Shown here: piece by piece, positions 12,000 to 52,210 of the stretch
How the letters are laid out: each line of letters begins with the position of its first letter
Numbering within the stretch: position 1 is the stretch's first letter
Source of the DNA: Gibbula magus
Taxonomy: Eukaryota; Mollusca; Gastropoda; Trochida; Trochidae
Assembly: GCA_936450465.1 (NCBI GenBank)
Contig: OW388300.1
Location: 46,328,358-46,392,357, forward strand
Reading direction: 5' to 3'
DNA length: 64,000 nucleotides
Notes under the pieces: generated by a model
Told to the model about the DNA's origin: nothing
The model's input: only the letters and a program-made list of their open reading frames with translations
Database searches by the model: none
Program-made: the position numbers and the translations under genes

Positions 12000-12487
12000 G
12001 ATTATAACCATTATACTGATCACCACGTTTAATAGTGTTGAAGGGAAATCATGATATACTGCGTGTAAAATAAGAAGTCTTGGTTTGGTTGTACTATAAG
12101 TCCGTAAATTTACCACTACATGGACGAATCCAGGATGTTCGTTTGGAGGGACCGTACCTTAACTTTCATATCTGACAACCAAACGATATGTGTGTTATTG
12201 ATTTACTGTGTACAGGAGAAAGGACCTAGTTAAGACAAGTAGATAGAGTCCATAATTTTCAACCGCCGAGTAGGAAAGTGTGACATAAATGGGAAAAAAA
12301 GACATCTACACAAGATGATTGCCACACATAGCAAGTGTTATTGTGCTCGATCTAACCACTTTTGAGTTCTTGCCAGGAAACAACATATTGTGTTATGTTT
12401 ACATGGACACGGCTAAAAATAAGATTCCAAAGAAACTGTAAACGCAGCAGGCACATCTACACATGATGATCGTTTTCAATATATGTA
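12000..12487. other. Stretch without recognised features
   Basis: Between the SINE and the 54-bp array I see no conserved coding frame, RNA gene or repeat. It would contain the 3' UTR of the acidic repeat gene if that gene is real; I did not find a clear minus-strand AATAAA. Confidence 0.5.
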
Positions 12488-14145
12488 TCCTCTGGTTCCG
12501 CCACTGCAGGATCACTGTCGGTGAAACAATGAGGTCAGTTTTTCTCAGGATCCGCCACTGCAGGATCACTGTCGGTGAAACAATGAGGTCAGTTTTTCTC
12601 TGGATCCGCCACTGCAGGATCACTGTCGGTGAAGCAATGAGGTCAGTTTTTCTCTGGATCCGCCACTGCAGGATCACTGTCGGTGAAGCAATGAGGTCAG
12701 TTTTTCTCTGGATCCGCCACTGCAGGATCACTGTCGGTGAAGCAATGAGGTCAGTTTTTCTCTGGATCCGCCACTGCAGGATCACTGTCGGTGAAGCAAT
12801 GAGGTCAGTTTTTCTCTGGATCCGCCACTGCAGGATCACTGTCGGTGAAGCAATGAGGTCAGTTTTTCTCTGGATCCGCCACTGCAGGATCACTGTCGAT
12901 GAAGCAATGAGGTCAGTTTTTCTCTGGATCCGCCACTGCAGTATCACTGTCGGTGAAGCAATGAGGCAATGTATCCACTGGATCCACCACTGCAGGATCA
13001 CTGTCGCTAAAGCAATGAGGCAATGTATCCTCAGGATCCGCCACTGCAGTATCACTGTCGGTGAAGCAATGAGGCAATGCATCCTCAGGATCCGCCACTG
13101 CAGGATCACTGTCGATGAAGCAATGAGAACACGTATTCTCTGGATCCGCCACTGCAATATCACTGTCGGTGACGCAATGTGGCAATGTATCCACTGGATC
13201 CGCCACTGCAGGATAACTGTCGCTAAATAAATGAGGCAATGTATCCTCAGGATCCGCCACTGCAGTATCACTGTCGCTAAAGCAATGAGGCAATGTATCC
13301 TCTGGATCCGCCACTGCATTATCACTGTCGGTGACGCAATGAGGCAATGCATCCTCAGGATCCGCCACTGCAGTATCACTGTCGCTAAAGCAATGAGGCA
13401 ATGTATCCTCAGGATCCGCCACTTCAGGATCACTGTCGATGAAGCAATGAGAACACGTATTCTCTGGATCCGCCACTGCAGTATCACTGTCGGTAAAGCA
13501 ATGGGGCAATATATCCACCGGATCCGCCACTGCAGGATCACTGTCGGCGAAGCAATGAGGCAATGTATCCACTGGAACCGCCACTGCAGGATCACTGTCG
13601 GTGATGCAATGAGAACAAGTATTGTCTGGATCCGCCTCTGCAAGATCACTGTCGGCGAAGCAATGAGGCAATGTATCCACTGGATCCGCCACTGCAGGGT
13701 CACTGTCGGCGAAGCAATGAGGCAATGTATCCACTGGATCCGCCACTGCAGGATCACTGTCGGTGATGCAATGAGGCAATGTATCCTCAGGATCCGCCAC
13801 TGCAGGATCACTGTCGGTAAAGCAATGAGGCAATGCTCAGGATCCGCCACTGCAGGATCACTGTCGATGAAGCAATGAGAACAAGTATTGTCTGGATCCG
13901 CCACTGCAAGATCACTGTCGGCGAAGCAATGAGGCAATGTATCCACTGGATCCGCCACTGCAGGGTCACTGCCGGTGATGCAATGAGAACACGTATTCTC
14001 TGGATCCGCCACTGCAGGATCACTGTCGGTGATGCAATGAGGCAATGTATCCTCAGGATCCGCAACTGCAGAATCACTGTCGGTAAAACAATGAGAGCAC
14101 GTATCCTCTGGATCCGCCACTGCAGGATCACTGTCAGGTGCAGAT
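12488..14145. repeat. 54-bp tandem array (~30 units)
   Basis: Units of 54 bp contain GATCCGCCACTGCAGGATCA and CTGTCGGTGAAGCAATGAGG. Units at 12488-12960 are nearly identical and carry GGTCAGTTTTTCTCT. Units at 12960-14145 are more diverse and carry GCAATGTATCC or GAACACGTATTC. One unit near 13835 lacks 4 nt. The period is 18 codons, so several frames stay open on both strands. Confidence 0.93.
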
Positions 14146-14192
14146 GCAGCCAGTGGAATTATTGCAATGAACGGAAAATAACTGTGTGACAT
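12913..14192 (-). CDS. Putative secreted acidic 18-residue-repeat protein (frame broken once)
   Basis: Unrecognised family. On the minus strand an ATG at 14190-14192, with A at -3, opens MSHSYFPFIAIIPLAASA, a good signal peptide with an AxA cleavage site. Units of the type DPAVADPEDTLPHCFTDS follow; each carries five acidic residues, one Cys and one His. This frame stays open for about 22 units and stops at 12913-12915 (…DPEKN, TGA). Near 13835 one unit is missing TATC on the + strand. The frame therefore shifts there, and the signal-peptide ORF runs on in a basic register to 12399, while the acidic register resumes from 13833. This may be a sequencing or assembly error, a real null allele, or a sign the ORF is not coding. 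Signal peptide plus Asp-rich repeats next to a Pif-like gene suggests an extracellular mineral- or metal-binding matrix protein; this is inference. Confidence 0.5.
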
Positions 14193-14577
14193 TGTTATAT
14201 TTTTTATCACACTATCTGTAACAGAACAAATTCTTGTATTTTTTGGGGACGAGTCCATTACGAGATTCGAACCCACACCATCAGAGTAGGGCACCAGTCG
14301 CCAACTTTCATTATACAGCTAACCTATTCAGTCAGCATAACTCACTTGAGAAGACATTTGTTTATAAGGTTCTTAATTCATTTACTATGACTATCATCAC
14401 TACCTACCCAATCAATATCTCCAATAAAGCCGTCGTTATGCCCAGGACAGCAACCGAGTCGGAGGTAATCCGTGCTTATAATTACTTGTCCTGAAAACAG
14501 TCAATGCATTATTTCACTATATTTCATTTATCATTATTATCATTAAACCATGATGTTTTCAATTTCACCATTAATAT

Positions 14578-14709: not shown

Positions 14710-14932
14710 ATTAGAAAATATGTACCTTTTATTTTGAAAACGCTGAATAAGCTTTTAACCATTAGTGAAATTTGATGATGGGTTTAAGATCGGTTATTGG
14801 AACAACCGGAAGATGCTCGCTGCTAATGGCATATGATCTATAGAAACTACCATTTGGTCGGTCTCGAATAATGAAACCGTCTTTCAAGATCCATTGTTAT
14901 TGAGATTTAATCACCGGACAATGACAATTTCT
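14710..14932 (-). other. 3' UTR of the minus-strand secreted-protein gene
   Basis: From the stop at 14933-14935 downwards there is non-coding sequence with an AATAAA on the minus strand at 14728-14733. The cleavage site is estimated at about 14710. Confidence 0.55.
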
Positions 14933-15094
14933 TTAGATTGTATGTCGAGAGTACGGAGGTAGATCATTTAGACAGTATGAGTGCCCACCATCGAGAGGGT
15001 TGCTGCTGAAGGTCTCGTTCCTGTCTTGGTGGATGACACGGAGAGCCAGGTTTTTCATGGTCTTCAGAATTACCAGGATGTTCGTCTGTCCTGA
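14933..15094 (-). CDS. Exon 5: terminal exon abutting the satellite
   Basis: Open from the acceptor to TAA at 14933-14935. It encodes TNILVILKTMKNLALRVIHQ, then DRNETFSSNPLDGGHSYC and a short tail. Two in-frame acceptors exist: CCACAG with the first exon base at 15094, and GGACAG with the first base at 15085, differing by three codons. The first lies inside the terminal unit of the 37-bp satellite. Phase 0 fits exon 4. Confidence 0.7.
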   Translation of the reverse strand, partial: SGQTNILVILKTMKNLALRVIHQDRNETFSSNPLDGGHSYCLNDLPPYSRHTI

Positions 15095-18000
15095 CTGTGG
15101 TACAGAAAATGGTAAATATTTATTGCCCTGACTGTGGTACAGAAAATGGTAACTCTTTATTGCCCTGACTGTGGTACAGAAAATGGTAACTCTTTATTGT
15201 CCTGACTGTGGTATAGAAAATGGTAACTCTTTATTGTCCTGACTGTAGTACAGAAAATGGTAACTCTTTATTGCCCTGACTGTGGTAGAGTAATTGGTAA
15301 ATATTTATTGTCCTGACTGTGGTAGAGAAAATGGTAAATCTTTATTATCCTGACTATGGTACAGAAAATGGTAACTCTTTATTCTCCTGACTGTGGTACA
15401 GAAAATGGTAACTCTTTATTGTCCTGACTGTGGTACAGAAAATGGTAACTCTTTATTGTCCTGACTGTGGTACAGAAAATGGTAAATATTTATTGTCCTG
15501 ACTGTAGTACAGAAAATTGTAACTCTTTATTGTCCTGACTGCGGTACAGAAAATGGTAACTCTTTATTGTCCTGACTGCGGTACAGAAAATGGTAAATAT
15601 TTATTGTCCTGACTGTGGTACAGAAAATGGTAACTCTTTATTGTCCTGACTGTAGTACAGAAATTGGTAACTCTTTATTGTCCTGACTGCGGTACAGAAA
15701 TTGGTAAATATTTATTGTCCTGACTGTAGTACAGAAAATGGTAAATATTTATTGTCCTGACTGTGGTACAGAAAATGGTAACTCTTTATTGTCCTGACTG
15801 TAGTACAGAAAATGTTAACTCTTTATTGCCCTGACTGAGGTACAGAAAATGGTAAATCTTTATTGTCCTGACTGTAGTACAGAAAATGGTAAATCTTTAT
15901 TGTCCTGACTGTAGTACAGAAAATGGTAAATCTTTATTGTCCTGACTGTGGGAGTGAAAATGGTAACTCTTTATTGTCCTGACTGTAGTACAGAAAATGG
16001 TAACTCTTTATTGTCCTGACTGTAGTACAGAAATTGGTAACTCTTTATTGTCCTGAGTGTAGTACAGAAAATGGTAAATCTTTATTGTCCTGACTGTAGT
16101 ACAGAAAATGGTAACTCTTTATTGTCCTGACTGCGGTACAGAAAATGGTAAATATTTATTGTCCTGACTGTGGTACAGAAAATGGTAAATCTTTTATTGT
16201 CCTGACTGTGGTACAGAAAATGGTAACTCTTTATTGTCCTGACTGTAGTACAGAAAATGGTAAATCTTTATTGCCCTGACTGTTGTAGAGAAAATGGTAA
16301 ATCTTTATTGCCCTGAGTGTGGTACAGAAAATGGTAAATCTTAATTGCCCTGACTGTGGTACAGAAAATGGTAAATATTTATTGTCCTGACTGTGGTACA
16401 GAAAATGGTAAATCTTTATTGTCCTGACTGTAGTACAGAAAATGGTAACTCTTTATTGTCCTGGGTGTAGTACAGAAAATGGTAACTCTTTATTGTCCTG
16501 ACTGTAGTACAGAAAATGGTAACTCTTTATTGCCCTGACTGTTGTAGAGAAAATGGTAAATCTTTATTGCCCTGACTGTGGTACAGAAAATGGTAAATCT
16601 GTATTGCCCTGACTGTAGTACAGAAAATGGTAAATCTTTATTGCCCTGAGTGTGGTACAGAAAATGGTAAATCTTAATTGCCCTGACTGTGGTACAGAAA
16701 ATGGTAAATCTTTATTGTCCTGACTGTAGTACAGAAAATGGTAAATCTTTATTGTCCTGACTGTGGTACAGAAAATGGAAAATCTCTATTGTCCTGACTG
16801 TAGTACAGAAAATGGTAAATCTTTTATTGTCCTGACTGTGGTACAGAAAATGGTAACTCTTTATTGTCCTGACTGTAGTACAGAAAATGGTAAATCTTTA
16901 TTGCCCTGACTGTTGTAGAGAAAATGGTAAATCTTTATTGCCCTGAGTGTGGTACAGAAAATGGTAAATCTTAATTGCCCTGACTGTGGTACAGAAAATG
17001 GTAAATATTTATTGTCCTGACTGTGGTACAGAAAATGGTAAATCTTTATTGTCCTGACTGTAGTACAGAAAATGGTAACTCTTTATTGTCCTGGGTGTAG
17101 TACAGAAAATGGTAACTCTTTATTGTCCTGACTGTAGTACAGAAAATGGTAACTCTTTATTGCCCTGACTGTTGTAGAGAAAATGGTAAATCTTTATTGC
17201 CCTGACTGTGGTACAGAAAATGGTAAATCTTTATTGCCCTGACTGTAGTACAGAAAATGGTAAATCTTTATTGTCCTGACTGTGGTACAGAAAATGGAAA
17301 ATCTCTATTGTCCTGACTGTAGTACAGAAAATGGTAACTCTTTATTGCCCTGACTGTTGTAGAGAAAATGGTAAATCTTTATTGCCCTGACTGTAGTACA
17401 GAAAATGGTAAATCTTTATTGCCCTGAGTGTGGTACAGAAATTGGTAAATATTTATTGTCCTGACTGTAGTACAGAAAATGGTAACTCTTTATTGTCCTG
17501 ACTGCGGTACAGAAATTGGTAACTCTTTATTATCCTGACTGTGGTACAGAAAATGGTAACTCTTTATTGTCCTGACTGTGGTACAGACATTGGTAAATAT
17601 TTATTGTCCTGACTGTGGTACAGAAAATGGTAACTCTTTATTGTCCTGACTGTAGTACAGAAAATGGTAACTCTTTATTGCCCTGACTGTTGTAGAGAAA
17701 ATGATAAATCTTTATTGCCCTGACTGTGGTACAGAAAATGGTAAATCTTTATTGTCCTGACTGTGGTACAGAAAATGGAAAATCTCTATTGTCCTGACTG
17801 TAGTACAGAAAATGGTAACTCTTTATTGCCCTGACTGTTGTAGAGAAAATGGTAAATCTTTATTGCCCTGACTGTAGTACAGAAAATGGTAAATCTTTAT
17901 TGCCCTGAGTGTGGTACAGAAATTGGTAAATATTTATTGTCCTGACTGTAGTACAGAAAATGGTAACTCTTTATTGTCCTGACTGCGGTACAGAAATTGG

Positions 18001-21000
18001 TAACTCTTTATTATCCTGACTGTAGTACAGAAAATGGTAACTCTTTATTGTCCTGACTGCGGTACAGACATTGGTAAATATTTATTGTCCTGACTGCGGT
18101 ACAGAAAATGGTAAATATTTATTGTCCTGACTGTGGTACAGAAAATGGTAAATCTTTATTGTCCTGACTGTGGTACAGAAAATGGTAACTCTTTATTGTC
18201 CTGACTGTAGTACAGAAAATGGTAACTCTTTATTGCCCTGACTGTAGTACAGAAAATGGTAAATCTTTATTGTCCTGACTGTGGTACAGAAAATGGTAAA
18301 TCTTTATTGTCCTGACTGTAGTACAGAAAATGGTAAATCTTTATTGCCCTGACTGTGGTACAGAAAATGGTAAATCTTTATTGCCCTGACTGTGGTACAG
18401 AAAATGGTACATCTTTATTGCCCTGACTGTTGTAGAGAAAATGATAAATCTTTATTGCCCTGACTGTGGTACAGAAAATGGTAAATCTTTATTGCCCTGA
18501 CTGTAGTACAGAAAATGGTAAATCTTTATTGCCCTGACTGTGGTACAGAAAATGGTAAATCTTTATTGCCCTGACTGTGGTACAGAAAATGGTACATCTT
18601 TATTGTCCTGACTGTAGTACAGAAAATGGTAAATCTTTATTGAACTGACTGTGGTACAGAAAATGGTAAATCTCTATTGTCCTGACTGTAGTACAGAAAT
18701 TGGTTACTCTTTATTGTCCTGACTGTAGTACAGAAAATGGTAACTCTTTATTGTCCTGACTGCGGTACAGAAATTGGTAACTCTTTATTATCCTGACTGT
18801 AGTACAGAAAATGGTAACTCTTTATTGTCCTGACTGCGGTACAGACATTGGTAAATATTTATTGTCCTGACTGTAGTACAGAAAATGGTAAATCTTTATT
18901 GTCCTGACTGAGGTACAGAAAATGGTAAATCTTTATTGTCCTGACTGTAGTACAGAAAATGGTAACTCTTTATTGCCCTGACTGTGGTAGAGAAAATGGT
19001 TAATCTTTATTGCCCTGACTGTGGTACAGTAAATGGTAAATCTTTATTGCCCAGACTGTAGTACAGAAAATGGTAAATCTTTATTGCCCTGACGGTGGTA
19101 CAGAAAATGGTAAATCTTTATTGCCCTGACTGTGGTACAGAAAATGGTAAATCTTTATTGCCCTGACTGTGGTACAGAAAATGGTAAATCTTTATTGTCC
19201 TGACTGTGGTACAGAAAATGGTAACTCTTTATTGTCCTGACTGTAGTACAGAAAATGGTAACTCTTTATTGTCCTGACTGTAGTACAGAAATTGGTAACT
19301 CTTTATTGTCCTGAGTGTAGTACAGAAAATGGTAAATCTTTATTGTCCTGACTGTAGTACAGAAAATGGTAACTCTTTATTGTCCTGACTGCGGTACAGA
19401 AAATGGTAAATATTTATTGTCCTGACTGTGGTACAGAAAATGGTAAATCTTTATTGTCCTGACTGTGGTACAGAAAATGGTAACTCTTTATTGTCCTGAC
19501 TGTAGTACAGAAAATGGTAACTCTTTATTGCCCTGACTGTTGTAGAGAAAATGGTAAATCTTTATTGCCCTGACTGTGGTACAGAAAATGGTAAATCTTT
19601 ATTGCCCTGACTGTAGTACAGAAAATAGTAAATCTTTATTGCCCTGAGTGTGGTACAGAAAATGGTAAATCTTAATTGCCCTGACTGTGGTACAGAAAAT
19701 GGTAAATATTTATTGTCCTGACTGTGGTACAGAAAATGGTAAATCTTTATTGCCCTGACTGTGGTACAGAAAATGGTAAATCTTTATTGCCCTGACTGTG
19801 GTACAGAAAATGGTAAATCTTTATTGTCCTGACTGTAGTACAGAAAATGGTAAATCTTTATTGTCCTGACTGTGGTACAGAAAATGGTAAATCTCTATTG
19901 TCCTGACTGTAGTACAGAAAATGGTAACTCTTTATTGCCCTGACTGTTGTAGAGAAAATGGTAAATCTTTATTGCCCTGACTGTGGTACAGAAAATGGTA
20001 AATCTTTATTGCCCTGACTGTAGTACAGAAAATGGTAAATCTTTATTGTCCTGAGTGTAGTACAGAAAATGGTAACTCTTTATTGTCCTGACTGTAGTAC
20101 AGAAAATGGTAACTCTTTATTGTCCTGACTGTAGTACAGAAATTGGTAACTCTTTATTGTCCTGAGTGTAGTACAGAAAATGGTAAATCTTTATTGTCCT
20201 GACTGTAGTACAGAAAATGGTAACTCTTTATTGTCCTGACTGCGGTACAGAAAATGGTAAATCTCTATTGTCCTGACTGTAGTACAGAAAATGGTAACTC
20301 TTTATTGCCCTGACTGTTGTAGAGAAAATGGTAAATCTTTATTGCCCTGACTGTGGTACAGAAAATGGTAAATCTTTATTGCCCTGACTGTAGTACAGAA
20401 AATGGTAAATCTTTATTGCCCTGAGTGTGGTACAGAAAATGGTAAATCTTTATTGCCCTGACTGTGGTACAGAAAATGGTAAATATTTATTGTCCTGACT
20501 GTGGTACAGAAAATGCTAAATCTTTATTGCCCTGACTGTGGTACAGAAAATGGTAAATCATTATTGCCCTGACTGTGGTATAGAAAATGGTAAATCTTTA
20601 TTGTCCTGACTGTAGTACAGAAAATGGTAAATCTTTATTGTCCTGACTGTGGTACAGAAAATGGTAAATCTCTATTGTCCTGATTGTAGTACAGAAATTG
20701 GTTACTCTTTATTGTCCTGACTGTAGTACAGAAAATGGTAAATCTTTATTGCCCTGACTGTGGTACAGAAAATGGTAAATCTTTATTGTCCTGACTGTGG
20801 TACAGAAAATGGTAACTCTTTATTGTCCTGACTGTAGTACAGAAAATGGTAACTCTTTATTGTCCTGACTGTAGTACAGAAATTGGTAACTCTTTATTGT
20901 CCTGAGTGTAGTACAGAAAATGGTAAATCTTTATTGTCCTGACTGTAGTACAGAAAATGGTAACTCTTTATTGTCCTGACTGCGGTACAGAAAATGGTAA

Positions 21001-24000
21001 ATATTTATTGTCCTGACTGTGGTACAGAAAAAGGTAAATCTTTATTGTCCTGACTGTGGTACAGAAAATGGTAACTCTTTATTGTCCTGACTGTAGTACA
21101 GAAAATGGTAACTCTTTATTGCCCTGACTGTTGTAGAGAAAATGGTAAATCTTTATTGCCCTGACTGTGGTACAGAAAATGGTAAATCTTTATTGCCCTG
21201 ACTGTAGTACAGAAAATGGTAAATCTTTATTGCCCTGAGTGTGGTACAGAAAATGGTAAATCTTAATTGCCCTGACTGTGGTACAGAAAATGGTAAATAT
21301 TTATTGTCCTGACTGTGGTACAGAAAATGGTAAATCTTTATTGCCCTGACTGTAGTACAGAAATTGGTAACTCTTTATTGTCCTGACTGTAGTACAGTAA
21401 ATGGTAAATCTTAATTGCCCTGACTGTGGTACAGAAAATGGTAAATATTTATTGTCCTGACTGTGGTACAGAAAATGGTAAATCTTTATTGCCCTGACTG
21501 TAGTACAGAAAATGGTAAATATTTATTGCCCTGAGTGTGGTACAGAAAATGGTAAATCTTTATTGCCCTGACTGTGGTACAGAAAATGGTAAATCTTTAT
21601 TGTCCTGACTGTAGTACATAAAATGGTAAATCTTTATTGTCCTGACTGTGGTACAGAAAATGGTAAATCACTATTGTCCTGACTGTAGTACAGAAAATGG
21701 TAACTCTTTATTGCCCTGACTGTTGTAGAGAAAATGGTAAATCTTTATTGCCCTGACTGTGGTACAGAAAATGGTTAATCTTTATTGCCCTGACTGTAGT
21801 ACAGAAAATGGTAAATCTTTATTGCCCTGAGTGTGGTACAGAAAATGGTAAATCTTTATTGCCCTGACTGTGGTACAGAAAATGGTAAATATTTATTGTC
21901 CTGACTGTGGTACAGAAAATGGTAAATCTTTATTCACCTGACTGTGGTACAGAAAATGGTAAATCTTTATTGCCCTGACTGTGGTACAGAAAATGGTAAA
22001 TCTTTATTGTCCTGACTGTAGTACAGAAAATGGTAAATCTTTATTGTCCTGACTGTGGTACAGAAAATGGTAAATCTCTATTGTCCTGATTGTAGTACAG
22101 AAATTGGTTACTCTTTATTGTCCTGACTGTAGTACAGAAAATGGTAAATCTTTATTGTCCTGACTGCGGTACAGAAATTGGTAAATATTTATTGTCCTGA
22201 CTGTGGTACAGAAAATGGTAAATCTTTATTGTCCTGACTGTGGTACAGAAAATGGTAACTCTTTATTGTCCTGACTGTAGTACAGAAAATGGTAACTCTT
22301 TATTGCCCTGACTGTTGTAGAGAAAATGGTAAATCTTTATTGCCCTGACTGTGGTACAGAAAATGGTAAATCTTTATTGCCCTGACTGTAGTACAGAAAA
22401 TGGTAAATCTTTATTGCCCTGAGTGTGGTACAGAAAATGGTAAATCTTAATTGCCCTGACTGTGGTACAGAAAATGGTAAATATTTATTGTCCTGACTGT
22501 GGTACAGAAAATGGTAAATCTTTATTGCCCTGACTGTGGTACAGAAAATGGTAAATCTTTATTGTCCTGACTGTAGTACAGAAAATGGTAAATCTTTATT
22601 GTCCTGACTGTAGTACATAAAATGGTAAATCTTTATTGTCCTGACTGTGGTACATAAAATGGTAAATCTCTATTGTCCTGACTGTAGTACAGAAAATGGT
22701 AACTCTTTATTGCCCTGACTGTTGTAGAGAAATTGGTAAATCTTTATTGCCCTGACTGTAGTACAGAAAATGGTAACTCTTTATTGTCCTGACTGTAGTA
22801 CAGAAAATGGTAAATCTTTATTGCCCTGACTGTTGTAGAGAAAATGGTAAATCTTTATTGCCCTGACTGTGGTACAGAAAATGGTAAATCTTTATTGCCC
22901 TGACTGTAGTACAGAAAATGGTAAATCTTTATTGTCCTGACTGTGGTACAGAAAATGGTAAATATTTATTGTCCTGACTGTGGTACAGAAAATGGTAAAT
23001 CTTTATTGTCCTGACTGTAGTACAGAAAATGGTAAATCTTTATTGTCCTGACTGTGGTACAGAAAATGGTAAATCTCTATTGTCCTGATTGTAGTACAGA
23101 AATTGGTTACTCTTTATTGTCCTGACTGTAGTACAGAAAATGGTAAATCTTTATTGTCCTGACTGCGGTACAGAAATTGGTAAATATTTATTGTCCTGAC
23201 TGCGGTACAGAAATTGGTAACTCTTTATTATCCTGACTGTAGTACAGAAAATGGTAACTCTTTATTGTCCTGACTGTGGTACAGTAAATGGTAAATCTTT
23301 ATTGCCCAGACTGTAGTACAGAAAATGGTAAATCTTTATTGCCCTGACTGTGGTACAGAAAATGGTAAATCTTTATTGTCCTGACTGTAGTACAGAAAAT
23401 GGTAACTCGTTATTGTCCTGACTGTGGTACAGAAAATGGTAAATCTTTATTGTCCTGACTGTGGTACAGAAATTGGTAAATATTTATTGTCCTGACTGTA
23501 GTACCGAAAATGGTAAATATTTCTTGCCCTGACTGTGGAACAGAAAATGGTAAATATTTATTGTCCTGACTGTGGTACAGAAAATGGTAAATATTTATTG
23601 TCCTGACTGTGGTACAGAAAATGGTAAATCTTTATTATCCTGATTGTGGTACAGAAAATGGTAACTCTTTATTGTCCTGACTGTAGTACAGAAATTGGTA
23701 ACTCTTTATTGTCCTAACTGCGGTACAGAAAATGGTCACTCTTTATTGTCCTGACTGTAGTACAGAAAATGGTAAATATTTATCGTCCTGACTGTAGTAC
23801 AGAAAATGGTAAATCTTTATAGTCCTGACTGTGGTACAGACAATGGTAAATCTTTATTGTCCTGACTGTGGTACAGAAAATGGTAAATCTTAATTGCCCT
23901 GACTGTGGTACAGAAAATGGTAACTCTTTATTGTCCTGACTGTAGTACAGAAAATGGTAACTCTTTATTGTCCTGACTGCGGTACAGAAATTGGTAAATC

Positions 24001-27000
24001 TTTATTGTCCTGACTGTAGTACAGAAAATGGTGAATCTTTTTTGTCCTGACTGTGGTACCGAAAATGGTAAATATTTCTTGCCCTGACTGCGGTACAGAA
24101 AATGGTAAATATTTATTGTCCTGACTGTGGTACAGAAAATGGTAACTCTTTATTGTCCTGACTGCGGTACAGAAATTGGTAACTCGTTATTGTCCTGACT
24201 GTGGTACAGAAAATGATAACTCTTTATTGTCCTGACTGTGGTACGGAAAATGGTAAATATTTATTGTCCTGACTGTGGTACAGAAATGGTAGCTTCTTAT
24301 TATCTTGTCTTTGATACATATAATGGTAACTCTTTATTTTCCCGTCTTTGGTAGCTTGACATTAAATTAGCCAGTGATTGAGAGTAACAATGGGCATTTA
24401 CTCTATCCTCACAAGCCCGTGACCTAAATCGTAATATGATAGAATCAATTTTGATCAGGTCTAGATATAACCTACATTCAAAGAAGCACATTTTCAATGA
24501 TCCCCGCCCCACTCCCAATCCTATTGGTCTTGACACTTACGATATAAGGTGCAGCCACTTCAACTCCTTGTGGTTGTTTGTCAGTTCTCATAAGAACGCG
24601 TACAAGATCCTGTGCCTTAGCGTTTGCCCTGCTTTTGTCCAGGTATATCAGCAGGCTGGGAGAATGAGGCATATCCTGCGCTTTGCAGTTTGACATCATC
24701 ACCTGTTGAGTAAAGACCGCTTAACTAAACAAAACCTGACAGGTAAACAATTTTCTTTTGACCCGTGAATATATGCAATTGTAAGGTTACCAATACTTCG
24801 GTTATCCTTGACTTTCGCTCACATTTATCTTTTGTAGACTTTAATATCTAAGGGACGTTCAGCCTGCATGACCGTTTATAGCAATTGATAATCAGATTGG
24901 GCGTTTGTCTTTCGGAAATTCCAAAACAGCAATCAGCCAAATAAATCTACTGGTTTGCTTCCATCCATGGCTTTCCTTTGTGAGAACACCAAACTGCACA
25001 CGTCTAAGTTTGTAAATCATTGTTTAAAGTGATAAATATAATGTTAAGTGTGTTGGATAACACTACAGATAATATTAATATGATTATGTTTTATTCATGC
25101 AAATCCTTTTAATTGAAACCAATCTATTCCAAAAACTAGTTTCTCTATAGATGAATGCTTCGGAAATTCAATTGGCACTTCCGGTTGCATTCTCTTTCCG
25201 ATCCTAACATCTGTTCTACATCGCCTGAATCCGAGAGCAGAAATGGAGTGTCCTGATTGGTTGCAATTGAATCTAGTTGACCATCAGCGACACCGTTGAA
25301 AAAGTGGCATTTGCCAATGCCACGTCATAATGATAAAACAAACGTAAGATAAAGGTTATCTCGTTAACTGTGTATTCCTTGAAATATGCTCTGAAGAGAG
25401 TAACCTCTGTGGGAAGAGAACGATCCGGGTCACGACAATAAACAGTTTGCACAATAGTAACAATACCTGATTCCTCGTGACAGCGGGGTCGTCTTTGAAC
25501 TCAAACTGGATCTGGAACTCTGGTACAAAAGGCCTATAGCTGAATGTCCAGAACGTGATTGAAGTCTTACTGTTGAACTTGCCATGATCATTAAGAACCT
25601 GAAGGCTCTCCTGGCCTCCAACATTGTACTTGGCCACCTTATTCTCGACTCCTCTCCTGAAGTCCAGTGAGTAGTCCGGGGAACACGCTGAAATGTGATA
25701 TATTCTTATCCAATTGTTGACATTCTCTATTCATAACCAGGTAAGTGCATTTCTTATCAAATAACAGATATTGAGGTTTTTCTGTGACTTGAGGTTTTAC
25801 TGTGACTTGAGATGTTACTGAGATTTGAGGTTTTACTGTAACTTTAGGTTTAACCAACGTTTGAAATTTAACCAAAGAGAGCACAATATTTCAACATTTG
25901 TCTGTAATATACACGAGGGTATATACGTTAGAAAAACACTCAGCTGTGGTTTGGGTAGACATTAAAACACACACATGCATGTTTCGTGACGTCATACACG
26001 GCTTACTTTCGCAATGATAAGATCTAAAATGTGTTTACAGATGTTCCAGTGATATCACGGAAATACCATCAGTTGTGTCCCTTAATGCCTCTACTTAAGT
26101 CGCAGACAGTTTGGTGGTGTAGTTAGAGACCAAGGTGGATGCTTCTACATTAGAGAGAGGCAGGCCTTGGTTGAATATGTTTGATGTAACGTTTGAAACA
26201 ACGAGTTCATAATCCATTGGATAAAACAGATACATGATTGACACAAATGGATTGGATAAAACAGATACATGATTGACACAAATGGACGGAGACCAATTTA
26301 AGGTGTTCACATATTCAAGTTGTCTGACTTATACCTAAACAATGGAATGGTTTGCCATTTTGCGGTCTGAATTCTCCAAATCGCATGAAACCTATAAAGA
26401 CCTACAAACCTACCTCTCACACTGAAGGATTAAGGATAACAATTGTCTATGGAAACGGCTTATCGGGTCGTGTTATGAGATGTTCCACCCTCTAACCTAA
26501 CAATATGTTGTATAAACTTTAACTATAAATGGAAAATTAAAACAAAAATACAAAATGAAAAAACGTGCTACTGTGGCTTTAAGAACTCAGATCAAGAACA
26601 CGGCGCTAGCTTGGTTCGAGTTGTGCGTTCGATCTGATTTTAATGAGATTGTGTTTGAGGTTACCTTCTGTTGCCGGTATTTAACAGAGACGCGTTTCAT
26701 TGAATGGTTTGTAGGACCTTATTTGCTAACTATGGCCATATTTGTTAACTCTATGACCATATTTGTTAACTGTATGACCATATTTGTCAACTATATGACC
26801 ATATTTGTCAACTCTATGACCATATTTGTCATTCTATGACCATATTTGTCAACTCTATGACCATATTTGTTAACTCTATGTTAACCCATGGTCATGACGT
26901 CACTCTATTGTGTTTTCAGTTGATTATTATTTAGGAATCAACTGTTCATTGACTGTCCCAGTCAGGAGGGGTGTTAGGTTTAGACATTTTCAATAATAGC

Positions 27001-30000
27001 TAATCGAGTACATTTTTCGAGACTGATGTATTTTGTCTTAGTGTACATGAATAGGATCTTAAAATAGCTCTCAACTAGACAAGTTAATTTTTGTAATGCA
27101 TGAACCTGGATTCGAACATGCAACCCTTCGCTTGGTAGTCAGCGGTTCTAACCATTAGGCCACAAGACGCTGTTAGAAACCTTAGGATTGTTTGTCAGTA
27201 AGAATCCAACGTTCTATTCAAGGCACGGAAGGCATGCAAAGGCAGAGTTTCAGCTGTCAATCACTTCGCTTCGCGTGGAAGTTTTGCGCTGCACGTGCGT
27301 GGAAGAATCCATTTCATGAGGGCCGCAGCTACTTGTACCATATTCGATGAATGAGCACCGAAATTTGCAAAATAATTTATTTTGGTATTCCATAATTGAA
27401 ATTTATTGTTTCAAATCTAAAATAATTACATATGAATGTTTCGTGAAGTCATACATGGATTAAGATGGAGAATGCATTCGGAGCAGTGGATTGGTTAAAA
27501 ATAATCAACTCGCCCCTTCGGGGCTCGTTGATTATTTTTAACGATTCCACAGCTCCTCATGCATTCCCCATTACATCATATTTGTCAACTCTCCATAGTA
27601 CTCTTATCTATACTTCCCGTAAAGAACTTTAAAGAGGCCTTACGTCACCAGGGGGTTGTATCCCCTAGAAATAGAGTCAAAAACCTATACCCTATTACAC
27701 TATATATTGTTTTTCGGACTGTCCTGGCATATAACTTTGGAAATAATTATCCTATTTTGGCCGATTATATTTCGTCTTGTTGGAAAATCACTTATGCCCC
27801 TATTTCACTACGACCCGAATTGCCACGAATCACCACGAATAGGCGGCTGCTTAAATTCGTGAATATTCGTGAGCATAAAGCAAAATTCGTGAACAGCATT
27901 TACACTTGTACGAAATGTTTACGAACATTCGTAGCTTTTCATGCTAAAAACCTACAAAACATGTACGAATTCTTTACGAATTGTCTACGAATTGTAAGAA
28001 ATGATTAAGACACAGTCACGAATGTACTACGAATTTCCACGAATAAGATACGATATCACGAATCAAGTACGAATAGTTTACGATAGTTCGTGACTATTCG
28101 GCGATTGCAAGTCAACAAACCATTATTGAGGCGCAATGGAGAGCACGTGTTGCTCTGGCACTCGAATTTGAACTTCAATATCAATATCAAATTGAATTAG
28201 CTCTTCGTAGACAATTCGTAAATGCTTCGGGGTTAATTCGGGATGAGAACATCAACATTATCAACCACGAATTTCCAAGAATTGTTTACGAAGTTGTTAC
28301 GAACGTCCCGAATTAAATACGAACAGTTTACGAAGCAACTACGAATCTGAAATTCGTAGATGATTCGTGAAAATCTTTTGACAAACAAAATTTTTTCCAC
28401 GAATGCCACGAATTACAAGAATGTTGCCGAATCAACTAGGAATCATTTACGAATATCACGAATCAATTACGAATTATCTACGAATGTTCACGAAAGTGCA
28501 AATTTTCCAATTCGTGGCAATTCGGGTCGTAGTGAAATAGGGGCATTAGCTTTCGATTCGTAGGCATCGCCTGGACCATAAACGTTATATTGGTAGTGAA
28601 GGCTGACTTTGATTGAGAATTGGGTTTTACCGCTTTCCTTTTATATACTTAGTAATATAGGGTAACCTTCTGAGCGATACACGCCACTGTGGTACACCAT
28701 TGTGTGTATTATTACGTACTTCTCCTTGGGTCCATCAGGCACTTGCATTCCGATTGGTTGAATATGTGTTTTGGTCCGCAGTGCTCAGCTAGCATTGTGT
28801 TTTTATTTATGTAGAACGTCTCGTTGCCTGGGATTGCAACAAAGTTGCAAACTGAAATTTGAAAAATATCGTATTACTTTAGTGAAAATAAAACATAAAC
28901 ATTTAAAGTTATTGACGAACTGTTATTACCTTGGAATAAACAGGGGAACATAATCAGATATATGACAGTGTCATTCGATCATTCTCTTAGTTTGACATGT
29001 AAATAAAACCTACGGGCAAAAGAAACTATAGCACTCACTTGTTTTCGATTAATTCAATATTTTAAAGAAATGAGATGCATTTGATTATGGAACGATATAA
29101 TAGCACCTCTCGGCAATAGTTTGAATGACTTAATTGATGACTAGTTTATTTTTTAACTAAAATATCATTATTTAAAGTAGACAGGGGTAAGCAATGAAAT
29201 TTACAACAACCATGTTCAAAATGTTGTAAATTTGTGCAGGACGAAGCACATTTATTGAATTTCACACAGAGTATGTGTTATATGTCGATAAACAGTTGTG
29301 TTTTATCAAAATTAATTTGGGGGAATTTCCTAATTTAAAATTTAAATTTTAGTTTGAAAATATTCAAACCGCGTAGAGGTATTCTTTGACTGATTTAATG
29401 TTTTGGACTAATTTCCAAAACTAGCTCGTTTTTTTAATACGACGTCGACAACTTGAGATATTTGACTTTGAAAATTATACATATGATAAATATAACTGAG
29501 CCATATACTTTATTTTGCCCGTAGGTTTAGTTCATTTTCAATTCTATATGAACCGAAACATGAGATTGCTGAACGAGTTAACCACACGACTATGTGAGCT
29601 TGAAGTTGTAAACCCATCTTAAGATAAAATAAGATAAGATAAGATAGATAGGGAATAATTTTCACATCTAAGTGAGCATAAACACACAATTATACATATT
29701 CATCATATTCATATGTATAATAAATGCATGGCAACAAGATGATATAAACAAATGTACAAATAGTGTGGTGATGATACCATTAATTTAAAGGTACATCCAT
29801 TGTGTTTCATAAAATTTTATTTGGCTAATACGTTCCAACCCATCACATGTGCTGTCTACAATGAAAATAAATTCATTCAGCTTGCATATTTATCCCCAAT
29901 CGCAAAATATTTTCATAATTACTAGTTTCCAATAAAAATTTAGTAACATCATTATGCATGTGCAGAAACCGAAAGTGCACGTCCCATTGACATGCACAGT

Positions 30001-32862
30001 AGTTATATGAGCTATCAAACATTATCAACTCAAATCTGTCTTTTTGTCTGTTATAAATAAGATTCCAAAATTACGTTTGACTCATTGACGCGCGTCACAC
30101 GCTGTGCATTGTCCGGTTTTCGATCAGAAATCACTACTTTTATCTTCATATCGTCAATATGCTAAGTCTACTATCATCAAAATGGTAGTTTTCGGTAACA
30201 GTCGGTACTTCTTGATAAAGTAACACCAATGGATGTACCTTTAAAGATTAGGCCTGTTCAATAAAGCAATTGAAAATGGCACAAATGACAGTTTGTATCG
30301 TTTCGTTTTGTACGTCTTCAAATTATACGACAGCTGGAGGGTAACAGTTCAAAACAGTCAAGTCATGCATGATTATTTTGCACTGGTAATTTTTTAAGCT
30401 AAATTTTGAGCCTGCCCTTCATGAAGTTCATCTAATGTTTTAAGGAAACGATTAGAACATTTCCATCTTGTTTAATTATCTTATTTAATGTGTTTCTGTT
30501 TGTTATAGGGAGCCGAACAAACTCATTGCTGTAGAAATCAAGACAGTTACGTGTTATAAATACTATCCATAGCCAATTGATAAACTCAGAGGCAGATCAA
30601 AGCCCAAATGTCTCACCTCTGGTTGGTGATCCGTGCACACACGTGCATACATTTTGACTGAAAATAGTTCCCGGAGCGCACTCCATTTCGTCTCCTGAAG
30701 CTTCGTTTAAGTAGTATTCCTCGTAACCCAGTACCGGCTTGTAGAAACAGTCTGCAGAGGAAGAGAGTCGTTTTAACCAATATACTGCCAACAGTGTTCA
30801 AGTCATTCTGCTGAAATCACTTGGTAAATAGAGAATCTCACCCAAGTGTCTTCTTATCAAATATATCAAAACGAGTTGATAAAAGTTACAAATATCCGAG
30901 GCTTGATCTTATGCAAGCGATTTATCCTGTGGAACCCAGTTTGGATGATAAAATGGTAAGACCAGGGCCGTGTTCAAGAGAGGTTTCAAAGTAATCGCTC
31001 AATTAGCGATTTCTTTTAAACCTCTCTTGAACGCGATTGCTCAATGTAGCGCTACGTAGCAAAGCGAGCGAACTTTGAGGTTTCACACCGTGTCGCTCAG
31101 GAGAGAATAAGCGCTACATGAGCGCTAATTGAGCGCTACATTGAGCAATAAATGAACGATTATAAGCTCTCGCTGTTATAGACACAGCCCCGGTGTTCAC
31201 GAAACGGTTAACATGTCCTTGGTTGAGATACAATCTCGTTGTATGGATACTCAACTTCTTTATTATATAAATGCGACGTGTCGGTGTAGAGATAAATACC
31301 GTTATCCAATACCGTATCTAAACCAAACTGTCGCTTTCACTACATCAATACCATCCTATCCATCAAAACTATGTGTTATTCACCTATACAATTTCTACAG
31401 CTGAATCCCGGAAGTAGGTTCACCTAGTGTAAAGAGTATTGTGGAAATATAATGTAAATTTACGTTCATTGTAACGTCAATAAAATTACATCATATACAA
31501 TGACAATGAATTATCATATCCATGAGTAAACTAATTATTAGCAGACGTATCCTGTGATCGTGGTGCATGTTTATGAAATTTGGCAAAGTGAAATAGATAG
31601 AAGGGATGAAATTTTGAAAATTCAAATCTCATTAATTTAAAAGTTTTCATATCGACTCACTGAGAACAATTTCATCACAAATACATTGAATGAGTATAAG
31701 AGGAAATATATGATGTATGTTGACCCAGTTAAACACCTACTATGTTAACGGTGACTGTTTCCTAAGAGGCATCGTAATGTTATGGAACACTCACCTGTCA
31801 TCTTATAATGCACAATACAAAGTGTTCACTGATGTGCCAAATGTAGATGAACAATTTTCCGGTATGCAGCTGTAAACTACATCAAAGAGATACCTTGACT
31901 TACCGGTAGTTCATGTCATTAACACAACCTACTTACCTGTATACGTAGTTCATGTCATTAACAAAACTTTAAAGGTAAATACAGTTGAGACTGCAAAAGT
32001 AAAGTAAGCTAAAAGTTTTCTCTCTGATAACTTGAAATTGCAGAAACTGAATATACATGTTTATGTCAGAGAAAAAAAAGAAAAATAATCAATATGTGAG
32101 AGATCGCTCATGATATAGAACTGAATCCGGTCGTATAAACATTGTTGAGCTGATGACAAGATATAGACAGCCACTAATATGTTTGGCTGTCGTGTCGCAC
32201 ACAGTGGACTAAAAGTCAACCTTATGTGACGGTTAGTCATTTGAATAAGCAAATATTAGCAGTACAGGTCCTTGTCTGTGTCTTCAGTTTCATTAACACT
32301 AGAAGAGATTTGAGTGAGAATGTTTGACAATTATTTAATTTTCTTTGTATATTAAAACAAATGACAAGGACATGGTAGTCTATACTCTGTGGTAGCATAG
32401 CATAGCATAGCATAGCATAGCATAGCATAGCATAGCATAGCATAGCATAGCATAGCATAGCATAGCAAAGGACAAACTGAGATGTGAAACTATCAACACT
32501 GAATACAAGCCGAACACAAAGCCGGTCCAGTGGCAAGCTCATTTTATACTCTGCCAAATTTTGATGACTTTTCTGGGTTCGGGTTGAGGACCACTATGCG
32601 TTTATTTATTTAAATCAATAAAAGTACCTTTTCTCTACTTTCGCTCAGTTGAACTTTCGATGTTTTCGTTTCATACACTTTTAGAGATCATACGATTAAT
32701 AATTCTAAAATTCAAAAGCATTCTAGTCAACCATTATATAAGAAAGAAAGTTAACCTTATTGTCAGTCAGGTAACGCTTTGGTTACGGAGTTGTTTGCGC
32801 GCTATTGTTTTATCATAGATGTGGATTTCGTCACAAGATGTTCATGGATATTTTTAGAATAA

Positions 32863-32900
<38 letters not shown>

Positions 32901-33103
32901 AATAAGATCAGTTTATACTATATAATGACACAGAAAAAGAGTCATACTTCTGCAAGGAAGAATATAGCAGCTAGTGAAAACGTAAAAGCAAAAAATGCTG
33001 AATTCTTACAGGGTACTTTCCCCTGGGTGGAGGTAAAGGTGAAGGCCAATGTTACAGTCAAAACGAGGCAAATGGAGCTCCACTTCCACTCTGAAGCCGT
33101 CAT
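14933..33103 (-). CDS. Secreted protein with Pif/peritrophin-like and laminin-G-like regions, five exons
   Basis: Minus-strand gene assembled from five exons: 33010-33103, 30617-30751, 25467-25687, 24541-24702 and 14933-15094. Each has AG/GT borders, and the phases match at every junction (1, 1, 0, 0). Total 774 nt, 257 residues plus stop. Residues 1-27 form a signal peptide. Next is a Cys-rich segment with ECAPGTIFSQNVCTCVHGS, resembling the chitin-binding peritrophin-like parts of molluscan Pif/BMSP shell-matrix proteins. Then comes a laminin-G-like stretch with ITFWTFSYRPF and PSLLIYLDKS. Expected location: extracellular matrix, perhaps shell or mantle. The family call is from memory of motif style, not a search. 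The introns are 2.3, 4.9, 0.8 and 9.4 kb; the last is filled by a 37-bp satellite. A 5' UTR intron is possible, since TTCCAG directly precedes GATG at the start. Confidence 0.72.
15091..24355. repeat. 37-bp intronic satellite, ~250 units
   Basis: The + strand unit is CTGACTGTGGTACAGAAAAT followed by GGTAAATCTTTATTGTC. The array fills nearly all of the last intron of the minus-strand secreted-protein gene. Variants are mainly GTGGT/GTAGT/GCGGT/GTTGTAGAG, AAATC/AACTC/AAATATT and TGTCC/TGCCC. Read on the minus strand each unit is a pyrimidine-rich run ending in CAG followed by TCAGGAC. It is not coding, since every unit contains stops and 37 is not a multiple of three. The last units near 24290-24355 are degenerate. 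Confidence 0.97.
24541..24702 (-). CDS. Exon 4: laminin-G-like region
   Basis: Exactly 54 codons between CAACAG and ATC|GTAAGTG, a consensus donor. It reads VMMSNCKAQDMPHSPSLLIY, then LDKSRANAKAQDLVRVLMRT. The SNC...PSL..YLD pattern follows FxFKD in Pif-like laminin-G regions, which supports the junction with exon 3. Phase 0 at both ends. Confidence 0.78.
25467..25687 (-). CDS. Exon 3: start of laminin-G-like region
   Basis: 221 nt between TTTCAG and CAG|GTATTG. It encodes 73 full codons beginning CSPDYSLDFRRGVENKVAKY and ending DDPAVTRNQ. The ITFWTFSYRPF / FQIQFEFKD alternation fits beta strands of a laminin-G fold. It ends at a codon boundary. Confidence 0.8.
25765..25860. repeat. Short degenerate repeat in intron 2
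   Basis: GAGGTTTTACTGTGACTT-like units of about 18-21 bp, read on the minus strand as KPQVTV-type hexapeptides. It lies in intron 2, just upstream of exon 3 on the minus strand. No splice sites place it in the mRNA. Confidence 0.5.
26217..26285 (+). repeat. Tandem duplication of ~34 bp
   Basis: TTGGATAAAACAGATACATG plus ATTGACACAAATGGA occurs twice back to back in intron 2 of the secreted-protein gene. Confidence 0.85.
26465..26582. mobile_element. TTAA-flanked MITE, partial copy
   Basis: Only the right end of the family at 4928-5289 is present, ending AAAAAACGTGCTACTGTGGCTTTAA. Confidence 0.6.
26729..26882 (+). repeat. 21-bp tandem array
   Basis: About seven units of CTATGACCATATTTGTTAAC. 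Intronic. Confidence 0.9.
27100..27172 (-). repeat. tRNA-like sequence (SINE head)
   Basis: The minus strand reads GGCCTAATGGTTAGAACCGC (A-box-like) and TGTTCGAATCCAGG (B box). Stem pairing is incomplete, so a tRNA-derived retroposon is likelier than a tRNA gene. Confidence 0.5.
27471..27570. repeat. Hairpin, ~45-bp arms
   Basis: GTTAAAAATAATCAAC pairs with GTTGATTATTTTTAAC around a CCCCTTCGGGG centre; outer blocks GGAGCAGTGGA / TCCACAGCTCC continue the arms. Confidence 0.8.
27792..28548. mobile_element. PIF/Harbinger-like MITE with 36-bp perfect TIRs
   Basis: 27795-27830 and the reverse complement of 28510-28545 are identical over 36 bp, beginning TGCCCCTATTTCACTACGAC. The element is bounded by TTA at 27792-27794 and 28546-28548, the 3-bp duplication type of PIF/Harbinger. 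The interior has dozens of ACGAAT or ATTCGT motifs and no transposase. It sits in intron 2 of the secreted-protein gene. Confidence 0.85.
29004..29528 (+). mobile_element. CTACGGGCAAAAG TIR element, copy 1
   Basis: Starts AAACCTACGGGCAAAAGAAA and ends with the inverted TTTTGCCCGTAGGTTTA. The interior aligns to the reverse complement of 39953-40478 over most of its length. Non-coding. Confidence 0.72.
30617..30751 (-). CDS. Exon 2: Cys-rich Pif/peritrophin-like segment
   Basis: The acceptor is CTGCAG and the donor GAG|GTGAGA. It encodes CFYKPVLGYEEYYLNEASG, then DEMECAPGTIFSQNVCTCV. Four cysteines lie in 45 residues, and the CAPGTxF...CxC pattern recalls chitin-binding segments of Pif-type proteins. 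It starts with 2 nt of a codon and ends with 1 nt, matching exons 1 and 3. Confidence 0.78.
30966..31200 (+). repeat. Dispersed GAGCGCTA-rich repeat, copy 1
   Basis: Contains a hairpin (TTCAAGAGAGGTTT / AAACCTCTCTTGAA) and clusters of TAGCGCTAC, GAGCGCTA and TTGAGCAAT. An inverted copy lies at 60405-60625. Confidence 0.75.
31201..33009. other. Intron 1 remainder, no recognised gene
   Basis: No conserved frame. It holds a 42-bp tandem duplication near 31905-31970 (TAGTTCATGTCATTAACA twice), a CATAG array and a GAT run at the right edge. Confidence 0.5.
32392..32466. repeat. (CATAG)n pentanucleotide array
   Basis: About 15 perfect units. Confidence 0.95.
33010..33103 (-). CDS. Exon 1: signal peptide
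   Basis: ATG at 33101-33103 with A at -3. The translation begins MTASEWKWSSICLVLTVTLA and continues FTFTSTQG before KVP, a typical cleavable signal peptide. The donor reads CCCT|GTAAGAATT and leaves phase 1, which exon 2 completes to Tyr. On the + strand the same bases form an unrelated ORF with a GAT run; I consider that a shadow. Confidence 0.7.
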
Positions 33104-46961: not shown

Positions 46962-47100
46962 CACAGGGACGTGTAGAAATAGCGTTAGAAAGACATGTAC
47001 CTATGGACACTACTCTATTACCTTTTATAAAGTAAGAGAGTAGGTACAGAAAGGTATATGTCTTTCTAACGCTAATTCTAAGCGATACACGCCTCTCTGG
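46962..47100. mobile_element. Palindromic hAT-like hairpin element, copy 3
   Basis: CACAGGGACGTGT...TAACGCTAATTCTAAGCGATACACGCC. The arms are more diverged than copy 2. The 440-bp repeat flanking the LINE begins inside it, at 47021. Confidence 0.78.
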
Positions 47101-47460
47101 TATGCACCATAATTATTCACCTGAGTTGATTACTGTAACAATGCACTAAAACAGTTGTCAAGTTTATGAGGATACATACGTTTATAATTGGAAGCAATTC
47201 CAGGAGATTTGGAATACATGTCACTGCATGGTTACATGCATGTACGAAAATAAGGTTGAACTGTGGATCTGTGTAATTCCCTCCTCTATCACGGTCACTT
47301 TCCAACATTTGTTCTTGACAGATCGTAGACCATGCGTCATTCATGAAAACAATTCCTCGACTAGATTGTGAAGGTCAATGCTTGAAACTTGGAGCTGGCT
47401 AAGAATTTGTGAAATTTACAAATGAACGCACAGTGTACGTACCTATCATCTATACATTTC
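47021..47460. repeat. 440-bp direct repeat, left of LINE
   Basis: Begins CCTTTTATAAAGTAAGAGAG and ends CATCTATACATTTC. It appears identical base for base to 51227-51666. The two borders coincide with the LINE's 5' truncation point and its A-rich tail. Confidence 0.95.
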
Positions 47461-51105: not shown

Positions 51106-51226
51106 AAGAATTTTCATGTCAAATGTTTTGTACCATTTATTGTGATAATACTATGAAATGAAAATGAAAAATGCTGTACCCTGTGAAAAGAAATAAAGTG
51201 ATAAAAAAAATAAAAATAAAAAAAAA
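47461..51226 (+). mobile_element. 5'-truncated L1/Tx1-type LINE
   Basis: The element starts abruptly within the endonuclease reading frame and ends in an A-rich tail (AAATAAAGTGATAAAAAAAA...). It is enclosed by the 440-bp direct repeats. ORF1 and the first part of the endonuclease are absent. The open frame is undamaged, so the insertion is recent. Confidence 0.92.
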
Positions 51227-51666
51227 CCTTTTATAAAGTAAGAGAGTAGGTACAGAAAGGTATATGTCTTTCTAACGCTAATTCTAAGCGATACACGCCT
51301 CTCTGGTATGCACCATAATTATTCACCTGAGTTGATTACTGTAACAATGCACTAAAACAGTTGTCAAGTTTATGAGGATACATACGTTTATAATTGGAAG
51401 CAATTCCAGGAGATTTGGAATACATGTCACTGCATGGTTACATGCATGTACGAAAATAAGGTTGAACTGTGGATCTGTGTAATTCCCTCCTCTATCACGG
51501 TCACTTTCCAACATTTGTTCTTGACAGATCGTAGACCATGCGTCATTCATGAAAACAATTCCTCGACTAGATTGTGAAGGTCAATGCTTGAAACTTGGAG
51601 CTGGCTAAGAATTTGTGAAATTTACAAATGAACGCACAGTGTACGTACCTATCATCTATACATTTC
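51227..51666. repeat. 440-bp direct repeat, right of LINE
   Basis: Second copy of 47021-47460. It follows the A-rich tail directly. A 75-codon minus-strand ORF occurs identically in both copies, but I see no reason to call it a gene. Confidence 0.95.
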
Positions 51667-51874
51667 TCCGCAAAACCTGGCTGATTTCAATCATATGTCA
51701 CCCCGTAGATAACGTTATTAGCTCTTTTTATTCGAAAATCGACCACGAAAACCTCTCTCGTGATCGTTTTTCGACACCCATTCCAATGAATTATCTTTTG
51801 TACCTTCTTTTTATTTACGGTTTATTTACGATATCGAATTCCCGTGCTTTTATTGCAGTGAAGAGATCAATAGT

Positions 51875-52210
51875 TGTGGAGCACAGCGGTGTATTGGTTA
51901 TCATGCTTGCCTCTCACGCAAACGGCCCGGGTTCGAATCCCGGTGGAGACACCAAAAATTTGTGGCCTGGGCCATATACTGTGTTGTGCCTCTGGGCAAG
52001 GCGCTTCATCCACATTGCACTCAGTCCATCCAGCTGTTAAAATGGGAACCTGAACACGGGGGGTACGAACCCATATGGTCGCGTGGAGCACTTAGTAGCG
52101 ACACAGAAAGTACAATTCCTTCAGGGTAATAATGTACCGCCATTGAGCAGTGCTTGCACTGGATATTAGGCTTTGCAATATACATTATGGTATTAGTAGT
52201 ATTTATTTAA
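51875..52210 (+). mobile_element. tRNA-derived SINE with conserved central domain
   Basis: The head has TATTGGTTATCATGCTTGCC and CGGGTTCGAATCCCGGTGGA (B box, tRNA-Glu-like CTC loop). It is followed by GCCTCTGGGCAAGGCGCTTC...CAGCTGTTAAAATGGGAACC, a body I recall from invertebrate tRNA-SINEs. The 5' acceptor strand does not pair, so it is not a tRNA gene. Confidence 0.75.

Follow-up and report, generated by a model that had tools for sequence, protein, structure and literature searches.

A tandem array of putative splice acceptors at a predicted last intron-exon junction of Gibbula magus resembles the mirage minisatellites of amphioxus

Minisatellite-like tandem copies of intron-exon boundaries, named mirages, have been described in amphioxus Adh3, in the globin genes BflGb6 and BflGb9, and in the genes for troponin C and PGBD5 (PMC3087553, PMC3902484; these and the other sources cited are represented here by excerpts). 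The BflGb6 mirage includes the 3' end of the intron and the 5' part of the exon, and one of its two haplotypes carries 6 units and the other 3, each unit measuring 150-160 bp (PMC3087553, PMC3902484). Unit sizes of 10-72 bp are given for Adh3 and of about 150-160 bp for the globins (PMC3087553). Many, not all, of the amphioxus copies retain splice signals; regular splicing is reported to be undisturbed, cryptic use being considered possible (PMC3087553, PMC3902484). In human IFI6 (6-16), a minisatellite supplies repeated splice donor sites at an exon edge (PMC4526556). A further point of comparison is telescripting, in which, according to the excerpts available, U1 protects transcripts from intronic polyadenylation (poly(A)) signals. 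Here we analyze a window of 64,000 nt from the gastropod Gibbula magus (assembly GCA_936450465.1, contig OW388300.1, positions 46,328,358 to 46,392,357), in which an array of 37-bp units occupies most of the last intron of a predicted gene on the minus strand and runs into its sixth and last coding exon, E6. We propose that this array is a mirage-type minisatellite, which probably arose when the 3' junction of that intron (29 nt of intron and 8 nt of terminal exon) was tandemly duplicated to about 250 copies.

The array had been recognized in an earlier note, made from the sequence alone, as some 250 copies of a 37-bp unit in an intron at 15091..24355. Tandem Repeats Finder (TRF) recovers it at 15087-24353 on the minus strand, with a period of 37, 250.4 copies and 92% matches, over a length of 9.27 kb. 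Its consensus unit on the minus strand is ATAAAGATTTACCATTTTCTGTACCACAGTCAGGACA, and the best reading of the sense unit is ATAAAGATTTACCATTTTCTGTACCACAG|TCAGGACA, that is, 29 nt of intron end followed by 8 nt of exon start; the ninth exon base, the G of TCAGGACAG, falls outside the repeated unit. Thus, the proposal that each unit joins intron end to exon start holds in that the unit spans the predicted junction, while the suggested division into about 27 and about 10 nt gives way to 29 and 8. In agreement with the earlier note, each unit resembles the predicted 3' junction and the array adjoins the exon, entering E6 by 8 nt. The predicted exons join in phase.

Cyclic alignment of the array yielded 252 rows, of which 248 units were analyzed after four had been set aside (two rows at the far end, one partial and one degenerate, a unit carrying a deletion, and a remnant of 1 nt); two units hold an inserted base. 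The 248 units fall into 81 types with a mean pairwise identity of 0.917. Blocks of 7 to 10 consecutive units are found again, unchanged, at lags of 17, 32, 13, 88 and 43 units (among them a 10-unit run at lag 17 and an 8-unit run at lag 32), as expected under unequal exchange or block duplication. The sequence represents one haplotype, and its block duplications could be at most an indirect sign of length variation between haplotypes. The far edge near 24350 is degenerate and more diverged than the rest: the first 20 units there hold 15 rare differences against a mean of 6.7 (permutation p 0.002; 0.24 for the first 5 units only). The exon-side edge is not degenerate; nor is it cleaner than the remaining array to a significant degree. 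No exact match to the unit was found in viral contigs, Rfam gave no match within the array at the gathering threshold (one tRNA match lies elsewhere in the window, at 51888-51943), and the RNA folding of a single 148-nt segment, four units long, was unremarkable (z -0.56). On the opposite (plus) strand of 15087-24353, many units carry, by eye, a donor-like ATG|GTAAAT. An antisense transcript of the array would therefore bear tandem donor-like sites; the strict GTRAG form is missing on that strand too.

A direct pattern count in the sense array gave 224 CAG|TC sites. The last of them is the predicted real junction, whose first exon base is 15094, leaving 223 decoys ahead of it and bearing out the expectation of hundreds of decoy acceptors upstream of the true one. 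The AG of CAG is absent from 23 of the 248 units, all 23 of which retain a second AG 4 nt downstream (TCAG); this second AG is itself missing in 2 of the 248. The GAGTG variant, already said to lose the CAG, does so (CAC in 18 units and CAA in 4). Between -20 and -5 the predicted E6 acceptor has a pyrimidine content of 0.75; among the five acceptors compared, only that of E2 is richer (E2 0.81, E3 0.62, E4 0.44, E5 0.56). It is preceded by a branch-point-like TTTAC whose A lies 19 nt before E6. The sense array contains 160 copies of TTTAC and 74 of GTTAC. A loose acceptor filter of our own, crude and not a trained splice model, was passed by 246 of the 486 YAG sites in the array, against 18.5% of 1360 outside it. 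Recursive splicing at AG|GT ratchet sites was considered and rejected: the 224 counted CAG precede TC, and GTRAG does not occur in the sense array.

The earlier note had overlooked three features of the array: that most decoys contain an AATAAA and a UAA in frame, the lack of GTRAG, and the kinship with amphioxus mirages. The sense array has 221 AATAAA, a motif that arises across the junction between adjoining copies; this amounts to 23.9 per kb, compared with 1.41 per kb for that strand in the rest of the window, and the opposite strand of the array has none. GTRAG, counted in the same way, is found 0 times in the sense array, against 1.77 per kb outside it. When the phase-0 frame is read from E5 into a decoy, the result is S-G-Q-stop in 202 of the 223 cases, and AATAAA overlaps the stop position in 198. 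Nine further decoys stop after other peptides of 2-3 residues (SG in 4, SGE in 2, and SGL, SGR and SVQ in 1 each) and the remaining 12 give a longer reading of at most 40 residues; none reads into the real E6 tail. At the alternative TCAG|G sites, 1 of 243 reads through to that tail. A dinucleotide-shuffled unit holds AATAAA in 0.3% of 5000 trials, a rate to be read in the knowledge that the motif was noticed after the fact. Because the unit combines a pyrimidine-rich stretch, CAG, the AATAAA formed at the unit junction and, in many copies, TTTAC, most units resemble a miniature terminal exon, with a putative acceptor, the codons for SGQ, a UAA stop and a poly(A) signal.

To model the host gene, exons were selected visually, with open frames and splice signals as guides, and were afterwards checked. 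Six coding exons chain in phase on the minus strand into 301 amino acids (aa) with a single stop at the end, their summed length being divisible by 3. The E5-E6 intron is the last, 9446 nt long and mostly filled by the array. E6 appears to be the terminal exon, and was taken as such because of the stop at 14933 and an AATAAA 200 nt later. Its GC content is 0.48, compared with 0.22-0.42 in downstream 50-nt bins and 0.36 in array bins. We also scored E6 by base and codon position, training on E2-E5 (651 nt) and using as control 2000 intronic samples of 142 nt, each in the best of three frames. E6 scored 12.7 (151 nt, in the expected phase-0 frame), whereas the maximum among the intronic samples was 8.5.

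As to the identity of the protein, two protein searches with the spliced product found no homologue (129 candidates at E up to 0.1 and 313 at E up to 10), in collections that may contain few animal proteins, and a search of the PDB gave three weak matches only (E 0.29-0.59). In Pfam, E2 reached 14.5 bits against CBM_14, whose cut-off is 22.1, and E3 gave nothing against that family. The joined protein had no laminin G or other Pfam match beyond the weak CBM_14, in HMMER runs whose filters drop most weak matches. No VWA domain was recognized by eye among minus-strand open reading frames of at least 52 aa in 31000-64000. The comparison of the host gene with the shell matrix proteins Pif/BMSP draws on the excerpt of PMC11291548 and on resemblance; the shell or mantle setting of the gene is unproven because neither a laminin G match nor a homologue was found. 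Two further repeats lie in its introns. In an 18-bp repeat at 25771-25860, which precedes the E4 acceptor by about 84 nt, some minus-strand copies read TCACAG and look acceptor-like, and the intron after E3 holds, at 27791-28549, a possible short inverted-repeat element with 40-nt arms, 98% complementary and 679 nt apart.

We hypothesize that E6 is real and terminal and that its junction is older than the array, which would have formed by tandem duplication across the junction followed by expansion through unequal exchange. Most likely, the array is tolerated, with the last acceptor serving in the majority of transcripts; tolerance is what one would expect by default, since regular splicing reportedly proceeds undisturbed in the presence of amphioxus mirages. 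Some transcripts may end early with one shared truncated C-terminus, giving 251 aa (...APYISGQ) rather than 301 aa, so that a decoy-spliced product would lose the last 50 residues. The odds of such early ends are raised by the competing exon E6, which itself appears terminal, and by poly(A) signals with no donor-like sites nearby, a scarcity that may weaken U1 protection of the array's poly(A) signals. Decay dependent on the exon junction complex is not expected, as a decoy stop would sit in a terminal exon. Both the fraction of transcripts that would end early and the effects of the array on splicing are predictions from the sequence.

Several points weigh against this reading. The terminal status of E6 is uncertain because a donor-like site at 15073, inside E6, agrees with 5 of 7 consensus positions; it is among the strongest in or near E6, together with two behind the stop, at 14914 and 14725, which also score 5/7. 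As no homologue was found, the predicted gene model depends on its splice signals, reading phase and base composition. The exact coincidence of the array's start with the exon is in part circular, since the start of E6 was read from the array's last unit. The motif counts are one coincidence multiplied about 250-fold. Finally, as to the direction of events, phase agreement favors an amplified junction over an adopted last unit only about 3 to 1 in our estimate.

The last of these points defines one alternative, in which an existing minisatellite expanded beside the exon and its last unit became the acceptor, making the SGQ codons satellite-derived. Most units bear an acceptor, so any neighboring sequence would appear spliced at the last unit, and TRF finds other, unrelated minisatellites in the window. 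We nevertheless regard this origin as unlikely, given that the CAG of the last unit falls in the correct phase (chance about 1/3) and that an ungapped comparison with the remainder of the window singles out no stretch resembling the unit, the best ones matching at 22-24 of 37 positions and one shuffle each giving 23-25. Less likely still is an error in the gene model, with E6 no exon of the host gene and its acceptor likeness due to chance in an AT-rich satellite. The failure to find a homologue would fit such an error, as would the acceptor-like AG held, by a loose criterion, by 30% of 5000 dinucleotide-shuffled units. Phase, the GC peak and the coding score of E6 speak against it, as does the stop followed by AATAAA behind that exon.

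A further possibility shares its origin with the duplicated junction that we favor, and the odds of the two overlap and do not sum to one. Here the array would actively control the gene, its length setting how often transcripts end early at SGQ-UAA mini exons with a protein 50 residues shorter. The 221 AATAAA without any GTRAG in 9.27 kb, a decoy only 268 nt past the GTAAGT donor of E5, the convergence of 202 of 223 decoys on one C-terminus and the apparently terminal nature of the competing real exon are all consistent with it. By contrast, the CAG carries no signal of selection, AATAAA changes on a tree of unit types at a near-average rate, and the amphioxus mirages are reported, in the excerpts available, not to disturb splicing (PMC3087553, PMC3902484). 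We consider active control improbable, marginally more so than an error in the gene model. The same low probability attaches to the specific idea that about 200 interchangeable mini terminal exons, with the UAA lying within AAUAAA, would yield one truncated secreted protein, and that array length would act as a rheostat of the 251-aa/301-aa ratio. The array length itself is probably unstable.

The absence of a selection signal comes from a tree built on the 81 unit types, a tree of 37-base sequences being itself weak. It was preferred to raw unit counts because duplication inflates the latter. On the tree, CAG changed 8 times against a mean of 7.5 over all circular triplets (28 of 37 windows changed as little or less), AG 7 times against 5.0, and AATAAA 13 times against a hexamer mean of 14.9. 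In raw counts, CAG showed 24 changes against a triplet mean of 40.2, with 19 of 37 windows equally low, and AATAAA 29 against 80.4, with 5 of 37 equally low. Selection for retaining the decoy CAG, which the earlier note had raised, is thus not supported: CAG changed about as often as other triplets, the pattern which that note itself had named as speaking against the idea. TCAG changed 3 times on the tree against a mean of 9.9 (2 of 37 windows equally low), and the 8-mer CAGTCAGG varies least of the 37 windows. Such low variation might be taken to mean that the second AG is conserved; the two motifs were chosen post hoc and we do not rely on them.

Table 1. Positions in the window of the predicted exons, the array and associated signals.
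Feature	Position	Strand	Basis or remark
E1, predicted first coding exon	33010..33103	-	signal-peptide-like start by eye; donor GTAAGA
E2, predicted exon	30617..30751	-	CBM_14 match at E 0.041, too weak for the Pfam cut-off
E3, predicted exon, cysteine-containing	28720..28851	-	CBM_14-like by eye alone; no Pfam match
E4, predicted exon	25467..25687	-	splice signals and phase
E5, predicted exon (exon 4 of the earlier note)	24541..24702	-	donor GTAAGT
First decoy CAG|TC looked up, first exon base	24272	-	268 nt past the E5 donor; 1 nt is deleted upstream in its unit
37-bp tandem array, about 250 copies	15087..24353	-	TRF and unit alignment; intron end and 8 nt of exon start
Overlap of array and E6 (TCAGGACA), 8 nt	15087..15094	-	TRF span and pattern count
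E6, predicted terminal coding exon (exon 5 of the earlier note)	14933..15094	-	phase 0, 53 codons and stop
AATAAA, candidate true poly(A) signal	14728..14733	-	200 nt past the E6 stop

Two other elements of the window deserve mention. At 12402-14318 on the minus strand, a 54-bp minisatellite of 31 copies lies inside a stop-to-stop frame of 639 aa, and a separate acidic repeat frame of 307 aa (DPAVADPEDTLPHCFTDS-like) covers part of it; coding by this minisatellite is doubtful because several frames are open on both strands. On the plus strand, 47011-51675 holds a LINE-type (long interspersed nuclear element) sequence with one frame of 1230 aa and matches to RVT_1 (E 2.5e-33), zf-RVT and an endonuclease. 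It is flanked by two direct repeats of 459 bp, 97.4% identical (300 nt at 100%), the first of which overlaps the start of the frame. Flanking direct repeats of this kind are unusual for a LINE.

The array is of the same kind as the amphioxus mirages, and thus a known type of structure. Like them, it spans an intron-exon boundary, known here from sequence prediction; it keeps splice signals in many, not all, copies (224 CAG|TC, with 23 of 248 units lacking the AG); and its 37-bp unit lies within the reported size range. It departs from the BflGb6 mirage, whose two haplotypes have 6 and 3 units, each 150-160 bp long, in comprising about 250 units of 37 bp, and from the amphioxus cases generally in its apparently terminal exon and in the stop and AATAAA found in most units. 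The IFI6 (6-16) splice-donor minisatellite, reportedly the subject, to go by the title, of Turri et al. 1995, is similar in placing repeated splice sites at an exon edge, whereas its sites are donors used alternatively and those here are predicted acceptors; no IFI6-type donors were found in the sense array, where the strict GTRAG form was scored. The array shares sense-strand intronic poly(A) signals with the targets of telescripting and differs in that all of them come from one repeated unit. Among the papers listed by our search of the open-licence literature, none was seen to describe an array of acceptors combined with poly(A) signals, and as far as that search goes the copy number and the presence of both a stop and a poly(A) signal in the majority of units are new. 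If the gene model is right, the locus offers a natural experiment on acceptor choice, with 223 near-identical 3' splice sites before one real site, most of them having a stop and a poly(A) signal within about 10 nt. It would then bear on whether the first, the last or the best acceptor is chosen and on whether unaccompanied poly(A) signals end transcription, and it would extend mirages well past the arrays of 3-6 units in the amphioxus globin genes.

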